NCBI RefSeq assembly: GCF_014281125.1 | Contig: NZ_JACOEA010000005.1 | Location: 114,339 to 178,338 of the forward strand | Origin: Lawsonibacter celer | GTDB lineage: Bacteria; Bacillota; Clostridia; Oscillospirales; Oscillospiraceae | Direction of reading: 5' to 3' | Length of the DNA stretch: 64,000 bases | In this document: positions 8,915 through 29,836 of the stretch, one piece after another | Layout: each line of letters begins with the position of its first letter | Position numbering within the stretch: the first letter of the stretch is position 1 | The notes under the pieces: generated by a model | Database searches by the model: none | Told to the model about the DNA's origin: nothing | The model's input: only the letters and a program-made list of their open reading frames with translations | Position numbers and translations under genes: made by a program

Positions 8915-9367
8915 TCAGGATTCCATGTGCCGGCCCAGGAAGCCGGCAATGGTCTGGGCCAGCTTGTAGTCGGTGTCGCTGCTGCGCAGGTGGCCCTCTG
9001 TGCCCACAAAGAGCACGCAGCCAAGCACGTCCCCCTCGGAGAGAATGGGTGCCGCGCAGGAAATCAGATACCGGCTGCCGTCGTCGCAGACAGGCAGGGG
9101 AGTCTCACCCGGTTTGAACTGATAGATCTGTCGGCCCTCCATGATCTGCTCCAGCTCCGGGGAGATGCGCTTGTCAGCCAAATCCCGGCGGGCTGTGCCC
9201 GCCACGGAAATACAGGTGTCGCGGTCGGCAATCACGGCGATCTCGCCCGTGGTTTTGTTCAGCGTCTCGCACATCTGACCGGCAAAGTCGCTCAGGCCGC
9301 CCATGAGCGAGTACTTTTTAAAAATAACGCCCCCATCCTTATCCGTATAAATCTCCAGTGGGTCGCC
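8915..9367 (-). pseudogene. spoVT: spoVT 3' fragment (SpoVT residues about 31-180), left of the insertion
   Basis: Host sequence left of the integration core. Joined to the fragment at 29739-29836 through the shared GGGTCGCC core it gives an uninterrupted 180-codon SpoVT, close to the 178 aa of the Bacillus subtilis protein as I recall it. This part encodes the end of the AbrB-type hairpin (LEIYTDKDGGVIFKKYS) and the whole GAF-like ligand domain. SpoVT modulates sigma-G-dependent genes in the forespore. At present this part lacks its own start and is expressed, if at all, as the tail of the recombinase. It may be a reversibly split gene rather than a dead one. Confidence 0.93.
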
Positions 9368-11077
9368 GTCACTGATAACATTGACATCGAAAACCTTGTC
9401 CGGACGCTTATCTGCGCTCTGGACTAATCGGCGATTTAAGATATTTTCGATGCCCCCATTAAAATTTACGGCTACCTCCGGAATCGCGCTGCGCAGGAGA
9501 GCGTCAATGTCGGACTGGAGCTTCAGCTCCAGATGGTCTTCGTACACACGGATCTCGTCTATGAGAAGTTCCAGGTCGTTGCGCTCCAGCTTTTCCTTGG
9601 TCAGGATCTCCTCGAAAATATCCAGTGCAGTTTTGGCCACACGGTTGACCTGAATGATGGTGTTGCGCTTATCGGAGAGCAGGTCGATCTGATGGTTGAT
9701 GCCCTCAATTTTCTTTTGCAGCTCTGCCTCCATTTCGTCGTAGGTTTCTTCCAGCAGAGCCTCCTGTTCCGGATGCTTCATGATATCTCTGATGCGCTGG
9801 CGCTTGGTGGCCTTTAGTTCTTCACGCAGTTCCTCCAGCACCTCGGCCAGATGGTCGGCGGACTGCTCGGTTTCTGCCACATCGTCGTTTTCCTTTGCAA
9901 GGTCTTCATTCAGCCGTGCCAGCATCTTCGCCGAGTTTTCCTTGACCATCTTTACATAGATTTTCAGAAGCTCGTCCAGCTTGTCCACACGAATGTGATG
10001 CGAGGTGCATCCGGCCAGTCCACGGCGGTGGTAGGTACCGCAGGTGTAGGCCGGTTTCAGATCGCTGCGGCTCATGGAGAACATGGGGCTGCCGCAATCA
10101 CCGCAGACGAGGAATCCGGAATAGAAGTTATCATATTTTTTCACGCCGCGGTAATTGGAGCGTGTGCGCTTTTCCCGCAGGGCGCGGGTGGTGGCAAAGG
10201 TGCGATAATCGATGATAGGCTGATGGTGGTTTTCAATGACGATCTGCTCATCTTCATCCCGCCGGACATCTTTGCCGTTGATTTTGGCGCGGGTGTATTT
10301 GCCCTGGCGCAGTGTGCCGATATAGAAGTCGTTGTCCAGAATGCCCTGTATACTGATAATGCTCCATGCAGCCTTGACCACACGCTTGCTGGTTTCACCC
10401 TCGGCTTCCTTTCGCATTTGCTCGGACATTCTCGGCGTGGGGATGCCCTGCTCGGTCAGATAGTTGGCGATTTTCTTATAGCCCCAGCCTTCTTCGTTGT
10501 ACAGCTTAAACACCTTTCGGACAATATCGGCCTCGGTGGGGACGATTTCAAATTCCTTGCGCTTGTTCACGATATAGCCGTAGGGCGCGGCGCAGATCCA
10601 CTGACCATCTGCCTGGCGGCGTTTGATGACATTTCGCACCTTCTTGGAGGTGTCGGTAACGGGCATCTCATTGAGCAGGAACTGGAACTGGATCTTCAGC
10701 CAGTCATCGTCATTGGGGAAGTCGATGCCGTCACCGATGGAGATGATGCGGATACCTGCATCACGCAGGTCTTCCAGCTCCACAAGTCCTCGGCTGTTGC
10801 GACGGGAGAAGCGTGAGAAGTCCTTGACGATGAGGATGTCGTATTTATGGCGCATCAGTTCTTTGCGCATCCGCTGATAATCTTCTCTTTGCTCGAAGGT
10901 ATAGCCGGAGCGGTCACGGTCTTCGTAGAAGGTCAGCGTGCTGTGTGGAAACCGCTCTTTCACAAAATCGGCGATGATTGCTTTCTGGTTTTCGATGGAT
11001 ACGTTATCCCTGTCAAGCTCATCGTCCACCGATATTCGCGTGTATCCCGCAATATCGAAGCGTTCAATCATGGTCAT
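8915..11077 (-). CDS. Large serine recombinase fused in frame to the SpoVT C-terminus
   Basis: A 720-aa chimera. Residues 1-573 are a large serine recombinase (TndX/TnpX-like): N-terminal resolvase domain with the catalytic Ser of YTRISVDDE (S16) and the KDFSRFSRR arginines, a Recombinase domain (about 165-290), a zinc ribbon (CGDCGSPMF ... CGTYHRRGLAGC, about 335-375) and a long coiled coil (about 395-500). Residues 574-720 are the GAF-like effector domain of SpoVT, beginning LEIYTDKDGGVIFKKYS and ending AQTIAGFLGRHMES. The frame crosses the left attachment core at 9360-9367 exactly at the codons for Gly-Asp-Pro. After excision the gene would instead finish with 24 codons from the right end (597 aa). 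The start overlaps the upstream RhuM gene by ATGA. Confidence 0.95.
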   Translation of the reverse strand: MTMIERFDIAGYTRISVDDELDRDNVSIENQKAIIADFVKERFPHSTLTFYEDRDRSGYTFEQREDYQRMRKELMRHKYDILIVKDFSRFSRRNSRGLVELEDLRDAGIRIISIGDGIDFPNDDDWLKIQFQFLLNEMPVTDTSKKVRNVIKRRQADGQWICAAPYGYIVNKRKEFEIVPTEADIVRKVFKLYNEEGWGYKKIANYLTEQGIPTPRMSEQMRKEAEGETSKRVVKAAWSIISIQGILDNDFYIGTLRQGKYTRAKINGKDVRRDEDEQIVIENHHQPIIDYRTFATTRALREKRTRSNYRGVKKYDNFYSGFLVCGDCGSPMFSMSRSDLKPAYTCGTYHRRGLAGCTSHHIRVDKLDELLKIYVKMVKENSAKMLARLNEDLAKENDDVAETEQSADHLAEVLEELREELKATKRQRIRDIMKHPEQEALLEETYDEMEAELQKKIEGINHQIDLLSDKRNTIIQVNRVAKTALDIFEEILTKEKLERNDLELLIDEIRVYEDHLELKLQSDIDALLRSAIPEVAVNFNGGIENILNRRLVQSADKRPDKVFDVNVISDGDPLEIYTDKDGGVIFKKYSLMGGLSDFAGQMCETLNKTTGEIAVIADRDTCISVAGTARRDLADKRISPELEQIMEGRQIYQFKPGETPLPVCDDGSRYLISCAAPILSEGDVLGCVLFVGTEGHLRSSDTDYKLAQTIAGFLGRHMES
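9340..9390. other. attL junction
   Basis: Host spoVT sequence (AAATCTCCAGT) abuts the core GGGTCGCC at 9360-9367, followed by the element arm GTCACTGATAACATTGACA (9368-9386). The arm matches the inverted right-end arm at 16 of 19 positions. The centre of the core is the dinucleotide TC at 9363-9364, equidistant from both arms, which is the expected crossover point for a serine integrase. Confidence 0.88.
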
Positions 11078-12090
11078 TCACCCTTTAAGTACTTTGCGGT
11101 TTCACGGTCGAAGTCCGAGATATACTCGGCATCCTGCCGTTTGCGGAACTCAGCGTAGATATCACCGGCTTTCTTCGCCGCGGCTTCGTGCGAGACCCGG
11201 CCTTTCCCCTCCAGCACGTTCCTGCGGTTGTTGGTCAGGAAGCGGTCTGTTTCGGCCAGCCAGTCGGCCATACTCATAAGCTGCTCATCCTCAGCCATCA
11301 ATTCGGCGTAGTCAATGAACATGGTGACCAGGCGGTTGAGTCTGGACATCTCCTTCTCGTTCAAGTAGTTTTTTGCCACAAGAACATCACTCTTCATGAT
11401 TTTGCCGTCCGGAGCTCCTTTCCACGTGGTGAGACCCATGGTGGGGCTGTCCAGAGAGGCGCGCTCACTGATGAGCTCCGCCGCTGTCTTTCCGGTGACC
11501 GCGAAGTGCAGCTTGTTCTGCACGAAGGCGTAGAAGGCTTTGGTGGTATCGCTGTTTTTATCGTAGTCATAGCTGCACTGCTCAAACACGTCGGCGATTT
11601 TTTGGTAGGCTCTTCGCTCGCTGGCGCGGATCTCACGGATGCGTTCCAGCAGTTCATCGAAATAGTCTTTTCCGAAGGGACGACCGTTTTTCATCATTTC
11701 GTCATTGAGGACGAAACCCTTCTGGATATATTCCTTCAGTGTTTTTGTCGCCCACTGACGGAAGCGGGTCGCCTTTTTACTGTTCACTCTGTAACCAACA
11801 GCGATGATGGCATCCAGATTGTAGTGATCCAGCTCTCGCTTGACGTTTCTCGTCCCTTCTTTGCGAACCACTAAGAATTTCTTAGCAGTTGCTTCGAAGT
11901 ACAGTTCTTCGTCTGCATAGATATGTTTCAAGTGTTGGATGATGTTCTCCGGTGTGCAGTCAAACAGTTCTGCCATACCGTTCTGGGTGAGCCAGAATGT
12001 CTCATCTTGAAATACCACACTGACAAATTGCTTGTCTGTGCCGTTATCGTAGAGCAGGATGTCGCCCTGCTTCATAAGCTCATGATCCAT
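11074..12090 (-). CDS. RhuM-family protein
   Basis: A 338-aa cytoplasmic protein of the RhuM family. The N-terminal part, with LTQNGMAELFDCTPENIIQHLKHI, has the look of a DNA-binding or BRO/ANT-like module. It is followed by the family's NLDAIIAVGYRVNSKKATRFRQWATKTLKEYIQKGF block. The family occurs on genomic islands and phages and was named from a Salmonella pathogenicity island; its biochemical role is not established. ATG 12090 follows AAAGGAG. Its stop overlaps the recombinase start (ATGA), so the two are cotranscribed and translationally coupled from the promoter at 12150-12178. Confidence 0.88.
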   Translation of the reverse strand: MDHELMKQGDILLYDNGTDKQFVSVVFQDETFWLTQNGMAELFDCTPENIIQHLKHIYADEELYFEATAKKFLVVRKEGTRNVKRELDHYNLDAIIAVGYRVNSKKATRFRQWATKTLKEYIQKGFVLNDEMMKNGRPFGKDYFDELLERIREIRASERRAYQKIADVFEQCSYDYDKNSDTTKAFYAFVQNKLHFAVTGKTAAELISERASLDSPTMGLTTWKGAPDGKIMKSDVLVAKNYLNEKEMSRLNRLVTMFIDYAELMAEDEQLMSMADWLAETDRFLTNNRRNVLEGKGRVSHEAAAKKAGDIYAEFRKRQDAEYISDFDRETAKYLKGE

Positions 12091-12149
12091 TCAGCACGGC
12101 TCCTTTCTGTCAATTTTGTTTCGCGAATCCAATTTCACTTACAGACAAC

Positions 12150-12178: not shown

Positions 12179-12191
12179 TGGTATTTCGGAA

Positions 12192-12223: not shown

Positions 12224-12229
12224 TGATGC

Positions 12230-12490
12230 TTACATCTGCATAGTCATTCCGGCAGCTTTTTCTGCCTGAACTTCCTTTTCCGCAGAGCGTCGGCGATTGT
12301 AAAGCAAAAGGTCGCGCGTATTTTCGTACAGGTCTTGCTCACCTGACATATATACGGCGACCAGGTATTTTTGATCATGGTACTGTTTGTACAGCGGCTT
12401 CAGAGACTCACGCAGTTCGGCGTCGTTTTTTTCCGCATTTGTCAGCCAGATCCCAACGATTTTACTCTCTTCATTCACTGTCATGCGCAA
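12230..12490 (-). CDS. Small element-encoded hypothetical protein
   Basis: An 86-aa charged protein with no signal or membrane segment and a K/R/E-rich C-terminal helix (YNRRRSAEKEVQAEKAAGM). I do not recognise the family. The best start is the TTG at 12490, because GGAGTGA lies 9 bases upstream; the in-frame ATG two codons later is further from it. It ends the transcript that includes MobC and the relaxase and is followed at once by a terminator. A role linked to mobilization is only suggested by position. Confidence 0.65.
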   Translation of the reverse strand: MRMTVNEESKIVGIWLTNAEKNDAELRESLKPLYKQYHDQKYLVAVYMSGEQDLYENTRDLLLYNRRRSAEKEVQAEKAAGMTMQM

Positions 12491-12538: not shown

Positions 12539-13942
12539 TCACAGCATTTGCTGCCAGGTATAGGTTTGTTCTTCATGGTCATCCTCTTTGTGACCGAGAG
12601 CGATTTTCTTTTCCTTCTCCTTGCGGAGCGCTTTGCTGTCGGTGTGGTGATGCTGCGTGGTGCTGTCCATCACCGGCGCAGGAGACTGAGACTGCTCCAG
12701 CCGCCGCCCGACTTGAACCAGAACAGAAGCAACGCTGCCATGGCCAGCGCCATCACTGCCGTGACCACTGTCGGCCAGTCCCATTCCGGAAGAGACAGGT
12801 GCAGCCTGGGCAGTCTGATTTTGCGCCGCAAAGAAGATTTCTCTTTCGGCTTCCCAGCCTGTTCGATCATCTGCTCCAGATGCTTCACCGCTTTCAGCAG
12901 TTCGTCCATCTGCGTCTGTGTCGCATACGCTGTCGGCCTCTCGCACAGCCTGCGGAGGAGCTCCGTCTGCCAACTGTTCTGTTCCTCCAGTGTCTGCAAC
13001 CGATTCTCGAGGCGTTCCATGCTCTCGGGTATCGTCCAGTTGATCACCACATGATGTTCCTTCACCTCCGGTTCTGACGGAGTCGGCATAGTAGTCTGCT
13101 GCGGCTCTGTCTGTCGCATATGCGGATGACGATTTCTCTCCATGAGTTCGTCCATAGATAAGTTCTGCTCGGATTTCAAATTCATGTTCCATATTCTCCT
13201 TCAGATATTTATCGCCGAACAGCAGGCGGTCACGACACTGCCAACCACTCGGCGTGGTATAGGTGATGTTTTGCCGGGACTTCTCCCAGCGCACTTTATA
13301 GCCTTCGCTTTCCATCAGAGCGATGAACTCATCACGGTTGGATGCGTGGCGCATACAGTCGTTGATGATATTCATGAGCTGCATCTTCTTGCTCTGACCA
13401 CGGGCAGCGGTGTGATATTCACCGGTGGTCGTGCGCTTGGACTTCTGTCGGTTGGGGTCGGGCACAAACACCGGCAGAGAGAACTGCATACACACTTCGT
13501 CGTTGCGTTGGCGCAGTTCCTGCAGTTGCTCTTTTGCGATGTGCAGTTTCTTTCCGGTGTCGAAGCTGACTGAGTTGATGATGAAGTGGGAGTGGATATG
13601 CTCACGGTCCGTATGCGTACACACCAGAACTTCATGACCACTGAAATACTCAGCCAGCTTTTGCGCCGCCGCATGTGCAACCGCAGGATCGACATCGGCG
13701 CCCTTTGGGAAGCTCTGCACCATGTGGTAGAACATCGTACCGTCCGTTTTATGGTACAAAGATTTTGTTAGCATAAAATCGCCGTAGACTGTTTCCCGCT
13801 GACAGTTGATCCCTGTTACCAACTGCCGACCGTTGAACTCCGTCTTCCAGTCCTGGGTGGTGTATCGCATCACCGCGCCCATGCCACCACGAGTCTGACC
13901 TCGTTTGTAATTTGTGAAACTTACGATTGCCATGGTCACCAT
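12539..13942 (-). CDS. MOBP-type relaxase
   Basis: A 467-aa relaxase/mobilization nuclease. The N-terminal 200 residues carry the family motifs: a candidate catalytic Tyr near the N-terminus (AVMRYTTQDWKTEF) and the metal-binding triad in CTHTDREHIHSHFIINSV (about residues 108-125). The enzyme would nick oriT and attach to the transferred strand. The second half is low-complexity and acidic (GGEGTSCGDQLDDTRE and similar), consistent with constraint from another gene overlapping it in a different frame. The start overlaps the MobC-like stop by a few bases. No coupling protein or secretion genes are present, so transfer would depend on a helper element. Confidence 0.93.
   Translation of the reverse strand: MVTMAIVSFTNYKRGQTRGGMGAVMRYTTQDWKTEFNGRQLVTGINCQRETVYGDFMLTKSLYHKTDGTMFYHMVQSFPKGADVDPAVAHAAAQKLAEYFSGHEVLVCTHTDREHIHSHFIINSVSFDTGKKLHIAKEQLQELRQRNDEVCMQFSLPVFVPDPNRQKSKRTTTGEYHTAARGQSKKMQLMNIINDCMRHASNRDEFIALMESEGYKVRWEKSRQNITYTTPSGWQCRDRLLFGDKYLKENMEHEFEIRAELIYGRTHGEKSSSAYATDRAAADYYADSVRTGGEGTSCGDQLDDTREHGTPRESVADTGGTEQLADGAPPQAVREADSVCDTDADGRTAESGEASGADDRTGWEAEREIFFAAQNQTAQAAPVSSGMGLADSGHGSDGAGHGSVASVLVQVGRRLEQSQSPAPVMDSTTQHHHTDSKALRKEKEKKIALGHKEDDHEEQTYTWQQML
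12670..13185 (-). CDS. Nested out-of-frame gene within the relaxase: predicted coiled-coil membrane protein
   Basis: A 171-aa frame lying wholly inside the relaxase gene on the same strand but in another phase. It has its own AAGGAG ten bases before ATG 13185. The product looks like a real protein: a hydrophilic N-terminus, a coiled coil (ESMERLENRLQTLEEQNSWQ), a basic stretch (RRKIRLPRLH) and one transmembrane helix (WPTVVTAVMALAMAALLLFW) near the C-terminus. The relaxase frame over the same bases is low-complexity. The arrangement parallels mobB inside mobA of IncQ plasmids, where MobB is a membrane-associated accessory protein. Homology to MobB is not claimed. Confidence 0.72.
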   Translation of the reverse strand: MNLKSEQNLSMDELMERNRHPHMRQTEPQQTTMPTPSEPEVKEHHVVINWTIPESMERLENRLQTLEEQNSWQTELLRRLCERPTAYATQTQMDELLKAVKHLEQMIEQAGKPKEKSSLRRKIRLPRLHLSLPEWDWPTVVTAVMALAMAALLLFWFKSGGGWSSLSLLRR

Positions 13943-14247
13943 CGCTTTCGTTCCGCAATCTCACGTACGGTGGTTCGGATGTCAGCGAGGAGCTGACGCA
14001 CCTCATTGAGATTGACCACGGTGATCTTTCCCATGTGTGCCAGCGTCACCAGCTGATTGAGGTTGTTGCCAATGGCCTTGAGCTCTTTCAGCACGTCCTT
14101 CAGACCTTCAATAATAATGATCTGCTGACCCAGACAGCAGGCAGTGACATAGTTGCTCATAGACATACGAGACTGCGTTGCCAGTTCTTTGATGGTCGCA
14201 CGGTCTTCAGCTGCCATGCGGGTACTAAACTTGATATCTTTCTTCAT
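13936..14247 (-). CDS. mobC: MobC-like relaxosome accessory protein
   Basis: A 103-aa protein starting MKKDIKFSTRMAAEDRATIKELA, an N-terminal ribbon-helix-helix DNA-binding pattern, followed by helices with the hallmark KAIGNNLNQLVTLAHMGKI motif of the MobC/BMC mobilization family. These proteins bind oriT and help the relaxase nick. AAAGGA precedes ATG 14247; a longer frame to 14526 covers non-coding repeats and is rejected. The gene overlaps the relaxase start, as is usual for mobC-mobA pairs. Confidence 0.88.
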   Translation of the reverse strand: MKKDIKFSTRMAAEDRATIKELATQSRMSMSNYVTACCLGQQIIIIEGLKDVLKELKAIGNNLNQLVTLAHMGKITVVNLNEVRQLLADIRTTVREIAERKRW

Positions 14248-14943
14248 AATGAGTTGTCCTTTCATAGAATAATTCCTTCCGTCCCCCTCGGAGAGCTGGG
14301 GGATCCTCAAAGGGGGACTGGTCCCCCTTTGAAGCTGCGCCGCCGACAGGCGGTTAAAGCGTTTCCGCAGAAACGCTCGCAGCTGGAAGTGGGTCCGGGC
14401 TTCTGCCCGGGATATGTGCGGAAGGCGGGCAGCGGCATTGCCGCAGACCAGACAAACGCGATGCTGGCCGTCGTCCGAGCGGACGACGCATCCCTCGCCT
14501 CCCCGCAAGCGGGAAGGCTCGTCCACTCTGTCGCTCGTCCTCTTCCCACCGAACCCGCTTTCGCTGGGCTTCGGCGGGAACCCTATTGGGGGAGGTGATT
14601 TCCCCGCGCTCTGCCGGTGGGGCAGCTACTCTACCTTGCATTGAAAACCGCACACAGCGGCTCCTGTGGCCTCAAACGGCGGAGTTTTGTACCGCGCCGG
14701 GTATCTGTTTCACAAGCGTGTTTTCAGATGCAGAAGGCGGAAAATCAGTAGATTCAAGGCTTTCTACACTGCTCTTTCAGATACAGAGCAGGCGCGAATC
14801 AGATGCAGAGCAGAGGCAGAAATGCAGACGCTCTCCATCTCCCGCAGTTGCCTGTAAGCCAGTGTTTTCAATGGCTTTGGACATTCATGCGATACACCAA
14901 GCACTGCGGTTTTCTCCTCTGCGACGCCTGCCACACATGTTTT
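14248..14943. other. Non-coding region with hairpins and short repeats: candidate oriT and possible replication origin
   Basis: About 0.7 kb without a convincing gene. It holds a perfect 12-base stem with a 2-base loop at 14307-14332 (TCAAAGGGGGAC/GTCCCCCTTTGA), a CCGGGC/GCCCGG hairpin near 14393-14409 and a GTCGTCC/GGACGAC hairpin near 14475-14495. Toward the ATPase gene there are three loose copies of a CAGATRCAGA motif (14725, 14778, 14800). A position directly upstream of mobC favours oriT. The repeats beside a replication-type ATPase could be iterons. Neither nick site nor origin can be pinned down. Confidence 0.4.
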
Positions 14944-16752
14944 TTACAAAGCACCGTCATAGATCTGTCGTGCTTTGGACTTGTAGATGCAGGCCAGGCG
15001 CTTGCTTTTTTCGTTGATGCGAATAGACTTAGTGTTCTGTTCCTTGCCAGGAGAAAGCAGACCTTCCTCTGCCATCTGCTTGAGGAGTTCCTTATTAGAA
15101 ATGCTGAAGGATTCACCCTGTTCCTCGCAGAACTTTCTCACCAATCTGTGCGCGGGCTCACTGTGCAGATAGATGAACATATCATCTTCGTAGCCAATGC
15201 AGTTGGGAGGGATATAATCGTCGGTGGTGTATCTGTTCAGCAGACAGCACTGATCGCTTTCCAGAAGTGCGTAGAGCTTGCGGATGAATTTATGGGTGGG
15301 ACGATCCTGCCGAACATTCTCAGCCTGCTGTTTGCAGAGTCGCACCAGCATCTCATAGAACTGATTGCGGTACCCATTCAGATCACTTTTCGGAAGCTCT
15401 AACCGTGCTGCGGTGAAACTCAGATACAGTTCCATACCGATTTCCAGCCATGCGGCAGACTCCGGTACTCGACCATGGCAGTTGGGACATGCTTTCTGAA
15501 ATACACTGCGTCGTGCTTCAAACAGATTTTTCAATGCAGAGATGAATTTTGCTTCTACTTCCTTGTTGCTAAGGCACGTTTCCTTCAGCCATTCCACAAA
15601 GCTGAACATGCATCTCTGCAGCACGCCTTTCGATGCCTCTTCCTGGAACATGGTGAGGTCATCCAGATCCACATCACCGTCATGTAACTCCAGAGAGAAA
15701 TATCTGGCGGTGCCGCTCTCGCCAATGTCGGGCGGGAACTCACCGGTGACGATAGCGTTGCCCCGGGGAGGCCGCGTTTCCATAGGAGTGGAGTCTGAGT
15801 TCAGACGACCACGGCCGGTTCTGTCACCATAGGCGCGCATGATACTCTGCGCGGATGCGGTCAGTTTGCTTTCCTCCTGTCTGCCTGCGGGATGGAAATC
15901 ATCAATGCAGGTGAGCACATCTTTCAGAGAAAAGGCGTGATTCAGAATACTGTTGCCGGTGTCCCGAAATGACAAAGGCAGCTCCGTCCCGGTGAACCTT
16001 CCGAAGAAGGACAGGAACAAAGCTGCCAGTGTACTTTTGCGGCTGCCGGTCTTACCCACGAGAAAGAGAACAAACTTAGGTTCGTGGCTGGCCAGCTTGA
16101 GAAAATGATTCAGCGGAGAGAGAAATGCAAACGCCAGCATGGGGAACAGGATCTCAGGTGGTGCGACCTTGGAATCCAGGAGAGCGAGAGAAGTTGCGAT
16201 GTCTATCTTCTCCCAATGCCGCTCCATATTGTAGCCCTGCATCTTACCGGGCAGAGAAACCGTGACGGCTTCATCTCCGGGCATCAGGAACTGCCAGCCT
16301 TCCTCGGTTTCACGCCAGCCGGTGACGGTGTAGACCATACTGCGTTCAGCATTGTGCGCGGTGGTCTGGATGGCATAACGGATAGTGTCCTTGATGGTGG
16401 CACCGGGTTCCAGAATACAGTCGATGCCCCAATGTCTATTGAGCCAGTTGAAGCTGCTCAGATCTTCTGTGGGGATCTCTACCACAGGAAGTGTGCGACC
16501 GCTCTCGTGGACACCTGTGAGAGCGATGCGCGTTGTAGTTTCCACTCCGTCATCCATGGTGACCTCTCGGACAAGCCAGGGGACGAAGTTGCAGAGCTTT
16601 CGTTCATTGGACCCCTGCCTGTTGGTGCGGACATCGTACAGGCAGTTGTTCTTAGCTACGAAGTTTTCTGCGTAAATGTTTTCGGGGATTTGCTTTAAAT
16701 ATTTTTCCTCCTTAAAAGATTTGACCCCACAAAAAGTGGGGCCAGTATTCAT
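14944..16752 (-). CDS. P-loop replication-type ATPase/helicase of the element
   Basis: A protein of about 600 aa with an ATPase core in the middle: Walker A-like LFLVGKTGSRKSTLAALFLSFFG and Walker B LTCIDDFHP, followed by an arginine-rich RAYGDRTGRGRLNSD segment. This layout matches DUF927/SF3-like helicase proteins of integrative elements, often paired with primases. A CPNCHGRVPE motif may bind zinc, and the C-terminus resembles a winged helix (SISNKELLKQMAEEGLL). The start is uncertain: the first ATG is 16752, a TTG at 16770 is possible, and neither has a clear ribosome-binding site. An AAGGAGG at about 16703-16709 lies inside the frame with no start codon behind it. Confidence 0.75.
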   Translation of the reverse strand: MNTGPTFCGVKSFKEEKYLKQIPENIYAENFVAKNNCLYDVRTNRQGSNERKLCNFVPWLVREVTMDDGVETTTRIALTGVHESGRTLPVVEIPTEDLSSFNWLNRHWGIDCILEPGATIKDTIRYAIQTTAHNAERSMVYTVTGWRETEEGWQFLMPGDEAVTVSLPGKMQGYNMERHWEKIDIATSLALLDSKVAPPEILFPMLAFAFLSPLNHFLKLASHEPKFVLFLVGKTGSRKSTLAALFLSFFGRFTGTELPLSFRDTGNSILNHAFSLKDVLTCIDDFHPAGRQEESKLTASAQSIMRAYGDRTGRGRLNSDSTPMETRPPRGNAIVTGEFPPDIGESGTARYFSLELHDGDVDLDDLTMFQEEASKGVLQRCMFSFVEWLKETCLSNKEVEAKFISALKNLFEARRSVFQKACPNCHGRVPESAAWLEIGMELYLSFTAARLELPKSDLNGYRNQFYEMLVRLCKQQAENVRQDRPTHKFIRKLYALLESDQCCLLNRYTTDDYIPPNCIGYEDDMFIYLHSEPAHRLVRKFCEEQGESFSISNKELLKQMAEEGLLSPGKEQNTKSIRINEKSKRLACIYKSKARQIYDGAL

Positions 16753-16802
16753 ATTGCAGAGAGATGGCAAACACAGGTGGCGTGCGTTCTTTACCCCTCT
16801 GC

Positions 16803-16831: not shown

Positions 16832-16892
16832 TGTAAAAAGTGTGGACGGATTAAAAATCAAGTAGGACAAATTAATTCCGAGGAGGGTGCTT

Positions 16893-19164: not shown

Positions 19165-19455
19165 TTAAAGGGCGTCCTCCTCAGACCACACAGGTCGAGT
19201 TGGACGCCCTTCGTCGTACATATTCAGTTCCTGGCTCAGCCGCATTGCCAGACGGAAACCGGCGATGAAGCTGTCGATGGACAAGTCCTCGGCAATCTGG
19301 TCTTTGCAATCAATGATATGCAATACCAGTCTGCGTTCCGGCTTTTCCAGCCTGTCAATAAGTACCTGGTGGCATTCTTCTATCTCTGCTTTTATCTCAG
19401 CCGCAGGGAGCTTCTCATAAAAATTATCGTATAGTGCTTTCAGTAGTTCGTTCAT
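19165..19455 (-). CDS. Small DUF6809-like protein
   Basis: A 96-aa acidic helical protein (MNELLKALYDNFYEKLPAAEIKAEI...). AGGAGG lies close before ATG 19455. Proteins of this type are small accessory genes of clostridial mobile elements; I place it tentatively in DUF6809, whose role is unknown. It converges with the sigma-like gene and sits between it and the surface-protein gene. Confidence 0.65.
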   Translation of the reverse strand: MNELLKALYDNFYEKLPAAEIKAEIEECHQVLIDRLEKPERRLVLHIIDCKDQIAEDLSIDSFIAGFRLAMRLSQELNMYDEGRPTRPVWSEEDAL

Positions 19456-22500: not shown

Positions 22501-25500
22501 CGGGATTCTGATTCTCGATCTTGCCGGTGAAGTTTCCGCTGGCGGTGAAGGTGGTAGTGTCGGTCACGTTGGTAACCTGACTCCATCTGCCCTCAGCGGT
22601 CAGACCATCAATGGTGACCACTGCAGAAGGTGTCTGTGCACCGCCGTTGTAGGTCATAGTCTCAAAGGCTCCAACCAATGCGCCGGTGATGGTCAGGGGG
22701 GAGATGGTGTAGTCCACAGAGGCGGTCACGCCATCCACTGTAATGCTGGCCTTGTAGGTGCCTGCATCGGTGGGGGTGATGGTAGTTGCGTTTTCCCATC
22801 CCTCACCGGACTTCTTCTGATACTGAATGGTGGGGAGTTCGGTAAGATCACCGATGACAACCGCGTCACCACCATTAGCGTCGGTCAGGTTTGCCGCATG
22901 GGGAGTATTGGGCGTATAGGTGCTATTGTTTGCTGTGATCTTGATGCTGCCGCCGTCGGTATTGGTACAGCCGTCAGCCGTACAGGTAGCCTTGATAGTA
23001 TCTGTACCATCAAGTTCATACATCCATTCGTGGCTATGCGTCGCAATAGTAAACGTTGCACTGCCACTGACCGTGTAGTTTCCGCCATCGTTGTCGGTAA
23101 CCGTAATCGTAGCCTCACCGACAGCGGTATTGTTGGTGTAAGCGACTGTGTATTCACTTTCGGGAATTACATTGCCCAGATCATCCTTCAGAGTGAAGGC
23201 AGGCTTGATTTCGTTGCCGTTATCGTAGGGGTAAGTTGCCTGCAAGCCCTCAAATGTAGGATTGTTTACTTCTCTGGAAGAGATTTCGAACATCTTATAC
23301 TGTCTAATATTTATCGTCGTTTCCAGATAATGTTCCGTTTCAGCAATGACTGCTCCAACATAATAAGTACCTACATAACTCGGAACACCGCCTTCTGTTT
23401 GCGCACCGTGGTCAGATCCGGTTGGATTATATCCTCGTCCGGCACGAACGTAGTAAGTGTATGTCACTTCACCGTTTTCAGGGTTGTTTGTGACAGAAGG
23501 TGCATTGGGGGTGTCAAGATACTCCCATCCCTCAAGTTCTATTTGTGTACTGAGGGAGCCTTTGTTGATTTTCCAGTATTTCGTAACTGTACCAATGTAA
23601 TTTCCTTTGCCGGTAACAGTAACGGCATATCCGTCTCCGGTGCTGATATCTGTTGCAGAGGTGATACCTGTAATTTCGTAGTCAGTATCTGCATTAAGAG
23701 TTGTAGAACTATTGTACTTGACTGTAACGGTGACTGTCTGCTTGTTTCCGTTATATGAAACCGATGTTTTTGAAAGAGTTACCATTGAAGAGATAATTTC
23801 ACGTGGCTGAATCTTATAATCTACGGTTGCAGTTGCATCTCCCAAAGTGATGGAAGCGGTGATATCGTTACCGGTAACGTTCACACGGTCAACCTCGTTA
23901 TAAACGATGGTCGGCTTGTTTGGCACCCAGTTATCATAGGTGCATTCTGCATCCATAGCTGAACCGCTGTAAACAAGCTCGGTAGGAGCTGTTATAGTAA
24001 CGCTGCCACCGCTGTTATTGGTAAGGTCACAGCCTGCATTGACACATTCTGCCTTGATTGTGTTGGTTCCATCCAGAGCGTATGCCCACTTGTGCATATG
24101 GCGCTGTTCCAAAATGGGATAGTCGTTGTACTGATACCATACAGTTTCGCTGTTGCCTGCATTGAGCTTGGCGGTAACGGTACCGTCTGCAAATTCTTCA
24201 CGTGTGCTTCCGACAGTGATGGCGTCAAAGTTTGATGTAGCTCCTTTTGTATCCAGATAGGAACTGACTGTGGGTGCATCAACGTTGCCCTCGATGGCAT
24301 GGTTGTTGATTAGCTCGTCCGGACCGGGCCAGACATCTGAACTATATCCTACGATGGGAGCGCCGATGTTATCGGAAACGATTTTTGCATAGTTGTGGCA
24401 GTTTTCAATAATGCAATTGCCCTGATCGCCCGCAATACCGCCTGCTTTTGAAGTGGCATTTACAGCACCTACATTGTAGCAGTTAATAATTTTATCAGAA
24501 GAATCATTCGAACCACTAGCAGCAATACCACCTGCGATGCTGCCGGTAATCGCGCCTTCATTGTAGCAAAGTGAAAGATTTACATATACTGATGTATTAT
24601 CATAACCGGAAATACCGCCGGCATAACCGCCCTTAATATCACCGGAGTTAAAGCATTTAGTTACCTGTACCGATGCTCCGTCGCTATCGCTTGGGGCAGC
24701 TACAATACCTGCGGCGGCATATATCATCGTAGAACTACTTTCTGCGATAACATCTGCATTATTAGAACACTCTCTGATCGTTCCTGCACCTGAACGCACA
24801 CAAATACCGCCTGCATGTGAATCGTAGTTTTCGGTATGAACTGCCTTTACTGTGCCTGAAACAACATTACATTTTTCGATAGTTCCGGTATTGAAATACA
24901 CGATACCTGCTGCAGCTGATTTGCCTTCAACAGTAATATTAGTTGCCGTACAGTTGGTTACTGTACCCCTGTTCGTACCAATCATTGCAGAACTTGTACT
25001 GCCGATAAGGGTTATATCCGATACTGCGCAATCAGAAACCGTACCGTTATTGTTCTCAACCAAACCAACTGCCGGAGTAGAGCTTATATAGTTGACAGTA
25101 GCACCGGAAAGTGTCAGATTTTTCAGCTCACCGCCGCTTCCGATAGTATCGAACAACGGCAGTTCCATCTGTGGCAGTCCGCTGATAGTATAGCCGTCGC
25201 CGTCAAAACTGCCGGTGTAGGCATCACCCTCGCCAATACGGTAATCTTCGATTTTATCGGAAGTCACCGCAGAGAAATCAATATTATCGGTCAGGACACC
25301 GTCAATCGTAGGATCTTCCTTTGCCTTTTTCGCAAATTTGTACCAATCGGTCCTGTTAGCGATTTCATAAATACCGTCCTCGTTGGGTTCGTAAGATGCC
25401 GCAGCATCACCGTTATAGTAACGGTATCCGCCCTCTGCATCAGGGTCATCTTCACGGTATACAATATAGTCCGGGTTGCTGTCCGGATTCCAGGAGGGAT

Positions 25501-26650
25501 AGTTGTCTTCTCCAATCTTTTGACCCCACAGAACATAGACAGTATTGCTGGCTGTTTTATCGGTAAGATAATAGGTCGCAACGCCTGCTTTGATCTCTTC
25601 AGTAGTGAAGGCCTTCGAACTGTTATAGGTAATAACTTCACCGTAAACCTCGCTGTCATAGGCAGAATTAGAATTATTGCCGTTGCCTGCAAAAGGTCCC
25701 TGTTTGGAAGGAGCACTTACTTTTGCGGTAACAAAACAGGAATAGCAAGTTGCGTCCGAACCAAGAATACCGCCGGCATTTTTTGTCGTGGCAGTAACGG
25801 TTGTATTGTAGTTACAGCAGGCGGAAATTTTGGTTTTGCTCAAACGCCCGCCTTCGCCAAGAATACCACCAACGTTATTGGCACCGCTGACACTGCTGTC
25901 GTTTACAGAGCAGAGTCTGATGTAGGCTTCATTGTTGTAGTCACCTGCGGAACCGGCAATGCCGCCTACATTATCTCCGGAGCCTGTGATTGCGCAGTTA
26001 TACACATGACAGTTGCTGATAATCTCGCCGTAATCACCGCCGCCGACAATACCGCCAACAGAGCTTGTACCGCTAACAACGCTGTCGGTCAGCTTGCAGT
26101 TTTCAACAACAGAAGTTAAATCCGCATATCCTACAACTGCACCAAGCGTGCTCGAAGTGCTCGTAAAATACGAATCTGTGATGGTAAGATTCTTAACAGA
26201 AGCACCTTCACCCAAATAGCCGATAAAGCCACGATAGCTGCTCGTTTCATTCACATAAAGGCCGCTGATGGTCTTGGCATTGCCGTCAAAACTGCCGCCG
26301 AACCAGCTCGATGAAGTGAATGACTTGCCCATGGCCGTCCAAACATTCAGGGAAGAAGTATCGGATGTCAAAGCACCGTCAACGATCACATTCTCGTTGA
26401 CAGTGATATTGTTCATCAGCTTTGCATGAGCGTTATTATTTCCGCCATCTTTTGCTTTCGTATTGACAAGAGTTGCAAACCAGTACAGTTCTTCGACTGT
26501 CGTGATCTGATAGGGATTTTCGGCACTGCCGTCACCATTGGCAGGCTGGCTTGCCACTATCTCCGCTGCATTTACCGAAAGCGTAAATCCCGGAACAAGT
26601 CCCACCATCATTACGATGGCGAGAAGCATACTTAAAATTCGTTTTTTCAT
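19565..26650 (-). CDS. Giant S-layer-anchored repeat protein (GLUG, Ig-like/MBG and SLH domains), 2361 aa
   Basis: A secreted wall-anchored protein. The signal peptide (MKKRILSMLLAIVMMVGLVP, cleavage near VNAAE) is followed at residues about 100-330 and 470-840 by many GLUG-type repeats (GGIVGGGDYGEIISNCHVYN; AGGISGYDNT), each turn with a Cys or Asn ladder. Residues about 890-1940 hold repeated Ig-like MBG/YDG modules (TYNGGAQTPSAVV; LIYNGSAQSVTITSVKVGD). After a Pro/Thr hinge (YIPYIPSTPSAPTTQK) a beta domain leads to three SLH repeats (about 2180-2361). The modular plan is that of clostridial adhesins; the ligand is unknown. It is the largest gene of the mobile element and clearly cargo. AGGAGG precedes ATG 26650. 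Confidence 0.92.
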   Translation of the reverse strand: MKKRILSMLLAIVMMVGLVPGFTLSVNAAEIVASQPANGDGSAENPYQITTVEELYWFATLVNTKAKDGGNNNAHAKLMNNITVNENVIVDGALTSDTSSLNVWTAMGKSFTSSSWFGGSFDGNAKTISGLYVNETSSYRGFIGYLGEGASVKNLTITDSYFTSTSSTLGAVVGYADLTSVVENCKLTDSVVSGTSSVGGIVGGGDYGEIISNCHVYNCAITGSGDNVGGIAGSAGDYNNEAYIRLCSVNDSSVSGANNVGGILGEGGRLSKTKISACCNYNTTVTATTKNAGGILGSDATCYSCFVTAKVSAPSKQGPFAGNGNNSNSAYDSEVYGEVITYNSSKAFTTEEIKAGVATYYLTDKTASNTVYVLWGQKIGEDNYPSWNPDSNPDYIVYREDDPDAEGGYRYYNGDAAASYEPNEDGIYEIANRTDWYKFAKKAKEDPTIDGVLTDNIDFSAVTSDKIEDYRIGEGDAYTGSFDGDGYTISGLPQMELPLFDTIGSGGELKNLTLSGATVNYISSTPAVGLVENNNGTVSDCAVSDITLIGSTSSAMIGTNRGTVTNCTATNITVEGKSAAAGIVYFNTGTIEKCNVVSGTVKAVHTENYDSHAGGICVRSGAGTIRECSNNADVIAESSSTMIYAAAGIVAAPSDSDGASVQVTKCFNSGDIKGGYAGGISGYDNTSVYVNLSLCYNEGAITGSIAGGIAASGSNDSSDKIINCYNVGAVNATSKAGGIAGDQGNCIIENCHNYAKIVSDNIGAPIVGYSSDVWPGPDELINNHAIEGNVDAPTVSSYLDTKGATSNFDAITVGSTREEFADGTVTAKLNAGNSETVWYQYNDYPILEQRHMHKWAYALDGTNTIKAECVNAGCDLTNNSGGSVTITAPTELVYSGSAMDAECTYDNWVPNKPTIVYNEVDRVNVTGNDITASITLGDATATVDYKIQPREIISSMVTLSKTSVSYNGNKQTVTVTVKYNSSTTLNADTDYEITGITSATDISTGDGYAVTVTGKGNYIGTVTKYWKINKGSLSTQIELEGWEYLDTPNAPSVTNNPENGEVTYTYYVRAGRGYNPTGSDHGAQTEGGVPSYVGTYYVGAVIAETEHYLETTINIRQYKMFEISSREVNNPTFEGLQATYPYDNGNEIKPAFTLKDDLGNVIPESEYTVAYTNNTAVGEATITVTDNDGGNYTVSGSATFTIATHSHEWMYELDGTDTIKATCTADGCTNTDGGSIKITANNSTYTPNTPHAANLTDANGGDAVVIGDLTELPTIQYQKKSGEGWENATTITPTDAGTYKASITVDGVTASVDYTISPLTITGALVGAFETMTYNGGAQTPSAVVTIDGLTAEGRWSQVTNVTDTTTFTASGNFTGKIENQNPGMQKLFLNGATITLESDSLIYNGSAQSVTITSVKVGDVVVPTDAYSVSSNSGTEVGSYTLTITANANENTNFTGSATKGFTINQSGSVIGDDSIKTYRGETETTAFTYGDVITVKAQVAPTGEAPITFALMPNQMALFYGDTQICEAVEAVNGVYTMTYNTAGKDLPVGTRTLTVKYVGNGNMADTEKSVDVTLNKKPLTVVSAVSDGRVYEKNNTSVTITGVTISGKALDTDAVSVDTTDLTGSLASDNAGTYTKVTLPALTLTGDHKDYYIISGGEVDTNVAIAQITGTTSVNASPVTYSDISAKTQDLADVVASFKNGTEDLTYTVASKSSEIASASMDGSQLTFNLASGLTDAGTAAITVDVTGFTNYSKVTVTVDIELTDKTIVTVDMSDIVLVNRDFNGEALTYTGEAKADGYTGAFTYTWQDAEGNALTEAPTDAGTYRLVASVSDTVFYAGSNYVTVTIAPKEVTVTALDKSAYVGSTAPDLSVPVAGKDYTISGLVDDTVVTVTLSCTPDMSKAGEYAITSSASEESGNYTFTYVNGKLTVTYIPYIPSTPSAPTTQKVTVPISSDEETIHVDTKVKGDTATIDHVNLDHLDTVIGDHVEEIGTVTIDFSVLDKPITTVEIPANAVKEIADAVNDPHNDAHSFEVILTDGTSIDFDAEAMAEMAVQADGNDITISIVSHEDAKLTSAQEYVVGDHVAFDINVTSGGEHISDMGGKITVHAPYELQDGEHPRGIVVWYVDEDGKRERCETSYDAENKRVNWKTDHLSLYMIDYDASLAESCDGVTNCPSRAFTDLDTSLWYHEATDYVLENGLMNGVGNNLFDPNGTTSRAMIVTILWRLEGEPVVNYLMQFEDVAAETWYTEAVRWAASEGIVTGYSDVAFGPNDPITREQLATILYRYEQHKGGGFTGAWMFLLDYTDRDEVSDWAYEAMCWTTMHGVINGKGDGILDPKGNAKRCEAAQMLTNYLDK

Positions 26651-26700
26651 AAGCGTTCCTCCTTAGGAAAAATCAAAAATACAAAATATATCGAGAGACG

Positions 26701-26745
26701 ATCATGGGTTAATTAACCCATGATGAGGGGGTACCCCCTCATCAT
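26701..26745. promoter_or_regulatory. Two overlapping perfect palindromes between tetR and the surface-protein gene
   Basis: 26701-26724 is a perfect 24-base palindrome with half-site ATCATGGGTTAA. 26720-26745 is a perfect 26-base palindrome with half-site ATGATGAGGGGGT; the two share five bases. They lie 23 bases after the tetR stop and about 50 bases upstream of the surface-protein start. They could be regulator operators, a tetR terminator without a T run, or competing RNA hairpins in the surface-protein leader. Confidence 0.7.
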
Positions 26746-26767
26746 AAACCGTTGTCGGTCAATTTTA

Positions 26768-27487
26768 TTATATCGCCACATCTGTCGGCGGCGGAGAGCC
26801 GTCCTTCTCCGGCTTCTCCAGAAATTTCAGCATATCTGCGATTGTCTGTCTTGCGATGGTGGGATAGTCAAAGCGCTTTACAAAGGCTTTGGCCTCCGCG
26901 ATCTTTTCCTCCGGCACCCGGTAGATCCGCAGCGCTGCATCCAGAAAGCAATCCACCTTTTGGTCTATGGTAAACTCTGCGTCGCAAGGAATTGCCATGT
27001 ATCCCCAGATCATGCTGCCGGAGGCGATCTCCAGCCGGTAGAAGTCCTCCAAGGAACAGTCGGGCAGGTACTCCCGGAACACCACAGAGGTCAGCTTCTC
27101 AGCCACATTCCTCTGAATCAGTTTTGAGGGCAGGGACAGGGAGTAGGCGGAGCGGTATAAGTTCCGGGCTGCCTCACTGCATTCTGCCATGTGGAGCTGC
27201 AGCGCCGTCTCCGCGGCGTAGTACAGAACCCTGTCCTCGGTCTGGCCCAGCAGCAGATGTTTGGCGGCAGAAAACTGTCCGTTTAGAACGTATTCCACAA
27301 GCTCGCAAAGAATGTTTTCCTTCGCGCCAAAATCATGCACCATGGTGTTGACGTTGATTCCCGCTGCCGATGCGATCTGCCGAACGGAGGCCGCTTCGTA
27401 GCCCTTTTCCAAAAACATTCTCGCCGCCGTATACAGCACAAGCTTGCGGTCATGTAGTCGTTCCTGTTCGTTTCTGTGTGTCGCCAC
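26768..27487 (-). CDS. TetR/AcrR-family transcriptional regulator
   Basis: A 239-aa one-domain repressor type. The N-terminal helix-turn-helix (residues about 15-60: LYTAARMFLEKGYEAASVRQIASAAGINVNTMVHDFGAKENIL) is the standard TetR_N fold, and the C-terminal ligand domain is diverse. The GTG start at 27487 has GAGGTGG 6-10 bases upstream. It lies directly upstream of the giant surface-protein gene on the same strand with two palindromes in between, so it is a candidate regulator of that gene. A short palindrome AAACGCGTTT (27523-27532) between its own -10 and start could serve autoregulation. Confidence 0.88.
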   Translation of the reverse strand: MATHRNEQERLHDRKLVLYTAARMFLEKGYEAASVRQIASAAGINVNTMVHDFGAKENILCELVEYVLNGQFSAAKHLLLGQTEDRVLYYAAETALQLHMAECSEAARNLYRSAYSLSLPSKLIQRNVAEKLTSVVFREYLPDCSLEDFYRLEIASGSMIWGYMAIPCDAEFTIDQKVDCFLDAALRIYRVPEEKIAEAKAFVKRFDYPTIARQTIADMLKFLEKPEKDGSPPPTDVAI

Positions 27488-27977: not shown

Positions 27978-28823
27978 TTATTCCGTGATGCTGTCCATAA
28001 TGTGCCGGACAGTGTCGCAGACATCGTCAAAGGAAATCTCCTTTGCATAGTTAAAATCGCGTTGATACTTTTTCCAGAAGCCCCGGAGCTGTTCGCTTAC
28101 ACGAATCTCCGCAATAATATCCGGGTAGATTTCCAGCACTTTATGGCTGCCGCGCTTGTCCGTGGTCCGTTCCAAAGCTTGCAGCAGCGTCTTTGCATTA
28201 CACTCCGCGCCGCGAAGGGCATACAGAATATATATGTCGTAAAAATCTCTCGGACGGGTATTGGCAATACTGCGGGACAGTACCGTTTCTATCTTCTCCG
28301 CTAACACTGTTTCAAGGTTATAGGCAAGGATGCTGATTGTCCGGTCATCGAACAGCAACGAAAAGGTATATTCGATTTCCCTCGGCGTGATAACATCCCC
28401 GGTAGTTACATCCACGGTCAAGGGTACGCTGATCGGCGGGTAGTTCGCTTTCAGAGCCACACGGATGCCCGGATAATCGTCACCCTCCCGGATGTCTGAA
28501 ATGTCCACCAGCTCAAACTTCACATCATCGGCAATTTCCACGGCGCAGATCTCTCCGAAGATTTCACGGATGGATTCATGCGTCAGCGTAAAGCCTTTGA
28601 TTGTTGTATCTAAATCCATTGTTGCCCTTGTGTCCAGACCGACGATTGCGGAAATAAGGAAGCCGCCTTTGAGTATGAAATTATGCTTGTACTTTGACAG
28701 CGAAATTCGCTCCAGCAGTCTTTCCAGCATATAGTTCTGCATGACGAGCTGGGCAGAGATATTCTTTTCCGCAGCTTTCTTTTTGATGAAGGCTTTAAGC
28801 TGCATCGGATTCTTTGTAATCAT
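27978..28823 (-). CDS. abiEii: AbiEii-type nucleotidyltransferase toxin
   Basis: A 281-aa protein of the AbiEii/DUF1814 family, a DNA polymerase beta-like nucleotidyltransferase. It shows the GG motif in FILKGGFLIS (residues 50-57) and the metal-binding acidic pair in DTRATMDLDTT (D70, D72), then a C-terminal helical part with RPRDFYDIYIL. AbiEii is the toxin of type IV AbiE systems, which cause growth arrest and phage exclusion. Its start overlaps the abiEi stop by four bases. On a mobile element it can stabilise the element or defend against phage. Confidence 0.9.
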   Translation of the reverse strand: MITKNPMQLKAFIKKKAAEKNISAQLVMQNYMLERLLERISLSKYKHNFILKGGFLISAIVGLDTRATMDLDTTIKGFTLTHESIREIFGEICAVEIADDVKFELVDISDIREGDDYPGIRVALKANYPPISVPLTVDVTTGDVITPREIEYTFSLLFDDRTISILAYNLETVLAEKIETVLSRSIANTRPRDFYDIYILYALRGAECNAKTLLQALERTTDKRGSHKVLEIYPDIIAEIRVSEQLRGFWKKYQRDFNYAKEISFDDVCDTVRHIMDSITE

Positions 28824-29413
28824 AATAGCACCTCCAAATAGCGCAGCACTTTGGGCTTCACACGAAGCTGATCTGCGTACTGCATCAGTTTGTGTATGTC
28901 TTTTTCTTTGGAAGCCGCGTATTTCTTCATTGCCGCGCCCACAATCTGAATGTCACTGCCGCTGCCGCGAAGGATGTCGCACAGCGTCCTTTCAAGGTCA
29001 TAAACACGGATAGGATTGCCGCAGGGGGATCTCAGTTCAATTACACCAAAAGAATAGTTCTCCGGCACAACTCGCTTGATGTTGATTCTTTCCTGTTTTA
29101 GCGATGGTGAATTGTAGCCTTTGGGGAATGTCATGGTGTACTGCGCCGGGGTTCGGTCAGAATAGCCCAGCAAATACAGCGCGGTATCGTGTGAGTATAT
29201 TCCTCGCCCATACTTCCGCTGCAGCAGGTAAAAATCATCTTCCCATGCATCGCTGCGCACATACAAACCGCGTCCGAAACGGTAAAGTTTTCCGTTCTCT
29301 ACAAGCTCCTGTAAAATGCTTCGGTGCAGCCCTGCTGCTGTCACCTGTTCTGCGGTAATCGTTCCGTCCCGCGACGCTTCCAATAGCTCTTTGACTTTTT
29401 CCTTGTTGGTCAT
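28820..29413 (-). CDS. abiEi: AbiEi-type antitoxin/repressor
   Basis: A 197-aa protein with an N-terminal winged helix (TNKEKVKELLEASRDGTITAEQVTAAGLHRSILQELVENGKLYRFGRGLYV) followed by the AbiEi C-terminal antitoxin domain (SHDTALYLLGYSDRTPAQYTMTFPKGYN). AbiEi proteins repress their operon by binding paired inverted repeats and neutralise AbiEii. ATG 29413 is chosen; a GTG nine bases upstream is possible. Two inverted repeats that fit as operators lie directly upstream. Host transcription from the spoVT promoter could read into this operon. Confidence 0.9.
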   Translation of the reverse strand: MTNKEKVKELLEASRDGTITAEQVTAAGLHRSILQELVENGKLYRFGRGLYVRSDAWEDDFYLLQRKYGRGIYSHDTALYLLGYSDRTPAQYTMTFPKGYNSPSLKQERINIKRVVPENYSFGVIELRSPCGNPIRVYDLERTLCDILRGSGSDIQIVGAAMKKYAASKEKDIHKLMQYADQLRVKPKVLRYLEVLL

Positions 29414-29431
29414 GATTGCCACCCCGCTTTC

Positions 29432-29529
29432 GACTACTACACATTATATTATACACAAAAGATGTGTTATAGTCAATTGCGGAGGCGACAATTACACATT
29501 AAATCATTCGCAAATGATGTGTTATTGTC
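29432..29529. promoter_or_regulatory. Paired inverted repeats upstream of abiE: predicted AbiEi operators
   Basis: Two related inverted repeats in tandem, 29432-29474 and 29487-29529. Each has half-sites of the type GAC(T/A)A..ACACAT and ATGTGTTAT(A/T)GTC, with centres 55 bases apart. AbiEi proteins are known to bind two such repeats cooperatively and repress abiE. The TA-rich stretch between them and the start would hold the promoter. Confidence 0.72.
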
Positions 29530-29662
29530 GTAGCTGGGTTTTTTGTGTAACCGTTGGTTTTCCGAAATCCTTTAAGCCACAGTATTTTTAGCCCTTATAA
29601 AAGCTTTTTTAACCATCTCGAATACGCATCGTCCCAAAGCTGTTCTTCGTCACTATGTACAG

Positions 29663-29836
29663 CTACCAGCCTCGGCGTTTGGCTAAATCGAGCATGGCGA
29701 AGCAGTATTTTTCCCACGGTGTCAATGTAGTCTGTGACGGGTCGCCCTCGCGGATACGCATAGTGCGGCGGATCTCCTTTGGAATGACAACACGGCCCAG
29801 ATCGTCGATGCGGCGTACAATTCCAGTCGCTTTCAT
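29663..29836 (-). CDS. spoVT: spoVT 5' fragment with element-derived tail (57 aa)
   Basis: Starts MKATGIVRRIDDLGRVVIPK after AGGAGGAG, the classic N-terminus of SpoVT/AbrB-type proteins, and continues to Gly31-Asp32-Pro33. There the right attachment core (29739-29746) switches the frame into element DNA and 24 foreign residues (SQTTLTPWEKYCFAMLDLAK...) up to a TAG. Only half of the AbrB swapped-hairpin domain is present, so this peptide should not bind DNA normally. The same 24 codons would be the natural C-terminus of the recombinase in the excised circle. Together with 8915-9367 it makes a full spoVT. Confidence 0.92.
   Translation of the reverse strand: MKATGIVRRIDDLGRVVIPKEIRRTMRIREGDPSQTTLTPWEKYCFAMLDLAKRRGW
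29718..29766. other. attR junction
   Basis: The element arm TGTCAATGTAGTCTGTGAC (29720-29738) abuts the core GGGTCGCC (29739-29746), then spoVT sequence CTCGCGGATACG. Inverted, the arm matches the left arm at 16 of 19 positions, giving attP dyad symmetry. The host flanks on the two sides are not similarly symmetric beyond a few bases. Confidence 0.88.

Follow-up and report, generated by a model that had tools for sequence, protein, structure and literature searches.

A family of likely mobilizable elements splits spoVT at one codon and exchanges the C terminus of its serine recombinase for the SpoVT C-terminal domain

The split spoVT gene and the fused recombinase

The sporulation gene spoVT of Lawsonibacter celer is split by foreign DNA. 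We analyzed a window of 64,000 nucleotides (contig NZ_JACOEA010000005.1, positions 114,339 to 178,338) in which the two pieces of spoVT stand on either side of an element bounded by identical 8-bp cores, GGGTCGCC on the plus strand and GGCGACCC in the direction of the gene; 20,379 bp separate the two (Table 1). The element interrupts spoVT after codon 30, between the residues RE and GDP. Fusing the flanks through a single core gives a 180-codon SpoVT frame without a stop, and the 5' piece encodes a truncated MazE/AbrB-type domain (PF04014, E 6.5e-7). A first-pass annotation of this DNA had proposed these pieces, cores and join, and it was right to the base. It had also called the insertion an intervening element, and the element does lie inside a sporulation gene, carries a large serine recombinase and, on removal, restores the frame. 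Chance is excluded because, among the best 80 of 326 SpoVT loci that were confirmed by similarity to the window and came from other species, 50 read straight across the RE-GDP point and 23 have a recombinase fusion there; the 50 continuous loci match the predicted empty junction. In Flavonifractor plautii (L001), an intact spoVT has upstream of it the divergent DUF815 gene that lies beyond the window's 5' piece. Neither of the other window neighbors tested (TrpB-like, MGMT) occurred at any of the 80 loci, and no Rfam family or tRNA was detected in the window.

The recombinase and the spoVT 3' piece share one frame without a stop, which the first-pass annotation had overlooked. The integrated recombinase is a frame of 720 amino acids (aa) ending in the SpoVT C-terminal domain (SpoVT_C), and the enzyme's own tail is left at the far end of the element, behind the first 30 codons of spoVT. 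Its Resolvase, Recombinase and Zn_ribbon_recom domains all exceeded the Pfam cut-off, and the best-scoring solved recombinase was SprA/YokA (9dxh, 9dxd). The displaced tail comprises 27 codons (GDPSQTTLTPWEKYCFAMLDLAKRRGW) and, when the element is read as a circle, becomes the C terminus of a recombinase with a predicted length of 597 aa. Two things here are new: a family of elements in spoVT, and a recombinase that exchanges its C terminus for a host domain. We found no published report of an insertion in spoVT in a search that left supplementary files and most subscription papers outside its scope, and none of the literature found paired spoVT with "serine recombinase" or SpoVT_C with a recombinase.

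We read 36 tail pieces and kept 28 after dropping three of another insert type and five duplicates or near-duplicates. Over tail codons 9 to 26, the ratio of nonsynonymous to synonymous changes (pN/pS) was 0.45, whereas reading the same DNA in the two alternative frames gave 1.00 and 1.18; by this measure, the tail is under protein-level selection across the 28 elements. Attachment (att) sites were predicted from the two window junctions and intact relatives. The predicted attachment site of the circle (attP) is an inverted repeat, with 8 to 11 of 12 arm positions matching in 20 of 20 elements, and since this repeat lies beside the core, the first tail codons are constrained as DNA too. A low-confidence model of the circle-form recombinase P0122 (predicted local distance difference test [pLDDT] score, 63.9) places helices at residues 363-433 and 435-492, in keeping with the long coiled-coil C-terminal part typical of large serine recombinases, and a tail helix at 579-594.

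The window element carries a relaxase, an accessory protein of the PF21983/PF05713 type and a recombinase, the combination expected of an integrative mobilizable element, in the order MobC, relaxase, 86-aa protein, RhuM and recombinase. Among its 13 open reading frames (ORFs) searched with Pfam, none belonged to a conjugation machinery family (smaller ORFs were left unscanned), and none was a phage structural or lysis gene; PHROGs, applied to four ORFs, matched the recombinase only. In its gene content the element resembles a mobilizable element more than a prophage. Of the 20 elements that had at least 1.5 kb of sequence upstream of the recombinase, 17 have the 86-aa protein there at a distance of no more than 4 kb; it is farther off in L010, and none was seen in L075 or L158. 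Its model (pLDDT 75.5) had no PDB match at E <= 0.001. We consider it the best candidate for a directionality factor, a putative function. Cargo varied among the five elements compared by ORF. The element's sigma-70-like protein had weaker matches to sporulation sigma factors besides TIGR02937.

TABLE 1 Features of the split spoVT locus and its element in the 64,000-nucleotide window
Feature	Position	Strand	Evidence or remark
spoVT 5' piece (codons 1-30 + shared core)	29739..29836	-	PF04014 match; join gives 180 codons
spoVT 3' piece (core + remaining 150 codons), SpoVT_C domain	8915..9367	-	PF15714, E 5.5e-37; TIGR02851 partial
8-bp core, spoVT 5' end of element	29739..29746		Identical to 9360-9367
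8-bp core, spoVT 3' end of element	9360..9367		Identical to 29739-29746
720-aa frame joining the large serine recombinase (9368-11077) to SpoVT_C	8915..11077	-	Resolvase, Recombinase, Zn_ribbon_recom, SpoVT_C
27-codon tail (+ stop) native to the recombinase, continuing the frame of spoVT codons 1-30	29663..29746	-	Conserved in 28 elements
RhuM-family protein	11074..12090	-	PF13310, E 1.5e-107
86-aa conserved protein, candidate directionality factor	12230..12490	-	Near recombinase in 17/20 elements
MobA/VirD2-type relaxase	12539..13942	-	PF03432, E 1.3e-33
MobC/NikA-like mobilization protein	13936..14526	-	PF21983, PF05713
608-aa protein, no family match	14944..16770	-	No Pfam, NCBIfam, PHROGs or PADLOC hit
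DUF6076 protein	16887..18179	+	PF19553
Sigma-70-like protein	18176..19126	+	TIGR02937 over cut-off
DUF6809 protein	19165..19455	-	PF20648
2361-aa surface protein, SLH + MBG domains (cargo)	19565..26650	-	PF00395, PF18676
TetR-family regulator (cargo)	26768..27487	-	PF00440
AbiEii-type toxin, type IV toxin-antitoxin pair (cargo)	27978..28823	-	PF08843, PADLOC AbiEii
AbiEi-type antitoxin (cargo)	28820..29422	-	PF13338, PADLOC AbiEi

Recurrence at the same codon across relatives

Besides the intact loci and the fusions, the 80 species loci included three insertions before codon 11, two of another insert kind at the same codon and two that ended at the core. Both spoVT pieces remain open in all 23 fusions. 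From the family we also drew an even sample of 200 genomes, 153 of which had a match at E 1e-40. The 149 that were listed and classified comprised 114 with a full-length spoVT, 23 with the fusion, seven with a codon-11 insertion, two with a third insert kind and three that were partial or at contig ends. A search with the SpoVT_C region, limited to proteins of 396 to 1260 aa, gave 3,362 matches, and all of the 120 matches listed carry both SpoVT_C and Recombinase domains. In nine genomes a single contig carries the two spoVT pieces in the order expected, with spacings of about 12 to 81 kb; two of these are single-contig cases, G106 (4.3 Mb) and G156 (2.9 Mb). On another contig (G061:C23; L157, L158) the order is reversed, with the 3' piece before the 5' piece, which reflects either rearrangement or misassembly.

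In 595 pairs drawn from 35 elements, recombinase identity and host SpoVT_C identity were only loosely correlated (r 0.43). L158 and L126 share 96% identity in the recombinase and 75% in SpoVT_C, the corresponding values for L026 and L003 are 92% and 71%, and in close pairs the synonymous distances of the two regions often disagree. This decoupling implies repeated insertion, and the same spoVT codon thus seems, from these comparisons, to have been entered many times. The ratio of nonsynonymous to synonymous substitution rates (dN/dS) for the recombinase was 0.03 to 0.16 in 17 pairs. The window element belongs to a widespread, likely mobilizable family that uses spoVT as its attachment site, likely reversibly.

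Other insertions were seen in the same gene. A second kind splits spoVT before codon 11 (DDLGR) and has a conserved ACTTGACAcaatgg-like element end; it is present at L006, L036, L057, L081, L113, L114, L115, L118, L121 and L128, and at these loci the 5' ends were not found. L081 lies on a 64-kb IMG/VR viral contig and is the sole recombinase relative among viral contigs. Flintibacter muris (L147, G007) and Flavonifractor sp. An306 (L161, G003) have both kinds of insertion in one spoVT gene, with codons 11 to 30 left stranded between the two elements. A third kind of insert, or a rearrangement, lies at the same GDP codon without a recombinase fusion or a conserved tail (L064 and L077 on the 3' side; L177 and L184 on the 5' side; L117; L141 in G177).

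The forespore sigma factor gene sigG is itself split, between the codons for VP and MIVGEI, by an element of about 6.4 kb in L193 (G052), L194 (G146), L196 (G229) and L195 (G005). In three of these loci (L193, L194, L196), a recombinase frame of the element's own, 476 to 495 codons long, stands next to the 3' piece; the sigG 5' piece of L195 is on the opposite strand. Part of its cargo resembles aldehyde:ferredoxin oxidoreductase by eye.

Excision and its competing explanations

SpoVT is described as a regulator of forespore gene expression, and according to one study, a spoVT mutant of C. difficile forms no heat-resistant spores and the sporulation ability of a B. subtilis spoVT mutant is reduced (PMC3789822). 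From these phenotypes, spoVT is likely needed to finish spores, and the split state is expected to matter. Because the forespore genome is inherited, the element poses a puzzle, since the gene must be mended for spores yet split for the element to survive. The genes spsM, spoVFB and yabG, which other elements split, are expressed in the mother cell, where loss of an element is harmless since the mother cell dies. Together with sigK and gerE, which are called mother-cell genes, they are the targets of the intervening elements named in that literature (PMC10747680, PMC5595907). Most carriers of the spoVT element retain other sporulation genes. Of 30 interrupted genomes, 25 had spoIVA above its curated cut-off and 28 had sigG at E 1e-60; of 20 intact genomes, 19 had each gene at these thresholds, and sigG in no case exceeded its curated cut-off. 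Among the 47 genomes with sigG (50 searched), it was shortened in seven.

Excision as a circle predicts proteins in which the recombinase continues into a tail of this kind. When the C-terminal 48 residues of the 597-aa model were used as the query, 73 proteins were returned, of which P0121 (600 aa) and P0122 (596 aa) span the junction; the other 71 cover half to two thirds of the query region, all with SpoVT_C. A second search, with an Intestinimonas-type element as the query, gave two proteins. P0192 has the predicted length of 610 aa and shares all but 6 of the 579 recombinase positions with the integrated P0096, and P0193 (616 aa) belongs to a cluster of 36 sequences. The anticipated circle junction is present, then, in four database protein clusters. 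In phage records the circle-form search found two unannotated fecal scaffolds, one that stops within the recombinase frame (L201) and one that appears by eye to be a divergent recombinase-SpoVT_C fusion (L202). The contigs of Flavonifractor sp. An10 (L011, L159, L164) and of Pseudoflavonifractor phocaeensis An507 (L021, L160) end no more than a few bases from the core, and the two An507 contigs share 13 bases of the intact junction; these breaks may reflect mixed molecules in culture. Taken at the level of sequence, the splitting of spoVT by the window element is likely reversible.

Several observations limit this reading or weigh against it. The longest contigs of the circle-form proteins are 2.6 to 6.6 kb, so that we infer a closed circle rather than see one, and head-to-tail copies would yield the identical junction. 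P0192 carries a tail variant different from that of the element sharing its recombinase. The attP pattern, which would fit 13 of the 20 known elements, occurred in none of 400 assemblies and had no match in viral contigs. A 96-aa junction probe applied to 52 genomes gave one-sided matches in six and none spanning the junction, and the circle-form recombinase had no match in plasmid records at E 1e-60. The first-pass annotation had named a second intact spoVT as evidence that would count against it. Of 30 interrupted or contig-edge relatives, 28 lack one, and two metagenome-assembled genomes (MAGs), G018 and G023, hold a full-length spoVT plus an interrupted copy, either a bin mixture or a true second copy. 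Finally, among the closest interrupted pairs, dN/dS for SpoVT_C was 0.02 to 0.10 in the first seven and 0.38 in the next, and this purifying selection may predate the insertions or act on the fusion. Values over all pairs (0.29 to 0.33 in all three classes) were affected by saturation and were discarded.

On balance, we think it probable that this is a likely mobilizable element that enters through GGCGACCC, that its excision mends the 180-codon gene and that it maintains a mixed population which finishes spores only where the insertion is absent. The element would enter spoVT through the shared core, and in the circle state its enzyme would be the 597-aa form ending in its own tail. A minority of cells would undergo excision, either at random or along with mobilization, with the 86-aa neighbor possibly acting as the directionality factor; normal spores would be finished only by insertion-free cells, and the element could return to spoVT in the same population or in a new host. 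The layout of the mobilization cluster suggests that excision is tied to mobilization or to chance and not to the sporulation program. If cultures do mix split and mended cells, this might help to explain the description of some gut Oscillospiraceae that have sporulation genes as non-spore-forming.

An unlikely but serious alternative is that the element simply disrupts its host, spoVT being a conserved landing site, carriers being sporulation defective and either living without spores or dying out, and excision serving only for transfer. Insertions turn over fast, and among the 17 pairs examined there was no clear old shared insertion that would have allowed a clean test of decay. The lack of an excised junction in the 400 assemblies and the position of the mobilization genes ahead of the recombinase agree with disruption. 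So does the description of Flavonifractor porci and Flintibacter porci as non-spore-forming and of spore formation in F. plautii as variable (PMC12050419). Against it stand the similar retention of spoIVA and sigG in interrupted and intact genomes, the open state of both spoVT pieces in the 23 fusions and the circle-form proteins, which show the junction re-formed in nature, but recent insertion would fit each of these as well.

The boldest reading, in which the recombinase senses its state or a spore signal through the exchanged C terminus, we regard as quite improbable. Landing in spoVT would swap the enzyme's C-terminal helix for the SpoVT sensor domain, and a shared signal would trigger an excision that rebuilds both spoVT and the integrating enzyme. 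If this were true, a host regulator and a recombinase would be alternative products of a single reversible DNA switch, and C-terminus exchange on integration would be a possible way for a serine recombinase to know that it is integrated.

We give still less credence to a switch of the skin kind, in which the sporulation program triggers excision, either before division or in the forespore, so that the mended gene passes to the spore or the element is reinserted at outgrowth. The target is a forespore regulator, the splitting of the forespore gene sigG by a different recombinase element suggests a recurrent theme, and known elements of this kind are under the control of sporulation sigma factors (PMC5025042, PMC5595907). 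But an element excised in the forespore would be lost to the next generation unless reinserted, and a sporulation-type promoter was not established, no dedicated promoter search having been made. With the recombinase last in the relaxase/MobC cluster and no excised junction in 400 assemblies, the earlier suggestion of excision programmed in the forespore is unsupported.

That the split gene is a misjoin has next to no probability: many relatives are fragmented MAGs, and contigs end a few bases from the core in An10 and An507, but the same ordered structure lies on the single contigs of G106 and G156, and records of named isolates, P. phocaeensis An858 (L075) among them, show it too.

Comparison with known systems

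SPbeta, which splits spsM in Bacillus subtilis and encodes SprA and SprB, resembles the spoVT element in that the sporulation gene it splits adjoins a large serine recombinase, and its excision during sporulation is reported (PMC4191935). Unlike SPbeta, the spoVT element is of the relaxase/MobC type without recognized phage genes, it targets a forespore regulator, and its recombinase frame continues into the target gene. The skin elements in sigK (SpoIVCA in B. subtilis; CD1231 and the directionality factor CD1234 in C. difficile) likewise split a sporulation regulator whose frame is restored by the join. CD1234 confines skin excision to the mother cell (PMC5025042); that restriction is a feature of skin and is not established for the spoVT element.

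The gin element in gerE of Bacillus cereus ATCC 10987 is also a nonprophage intervening element in a sporulation regulator. It has three recombinase genes (PMC5595907), and the spoVT elements differ in occurring in many species at one codon. For yin, in yabG of Clostridium botulinum, a culture of mixed integrated and circular forms that depends on growth phase is reported (PMC10747680). The mixed population that we propose for the spoVT element would be similar, whereas yin is prophage-like and known from one strain, and the spoVT elements form a family-wide set.

Tn4451, with its recombinase TnpX, combines a serine recombinase with mobilization genes, and the TnpX N-terminal domain (2mhc) is a distant PDB match to the window recombinase. 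The spoVT elements differ in using one fixed codon of a conserved sporulation gene and in having a recombinase frame that spans attP. In the integration-dependent immunity of some mycobacteriophages, which involves a repressor and a tyrosine integrase, attP lies inside a regulatory gene and integration alters the C terminus of its product. In the spoVT element, by contrast, the protein that is altered is the serine recombinase itself.

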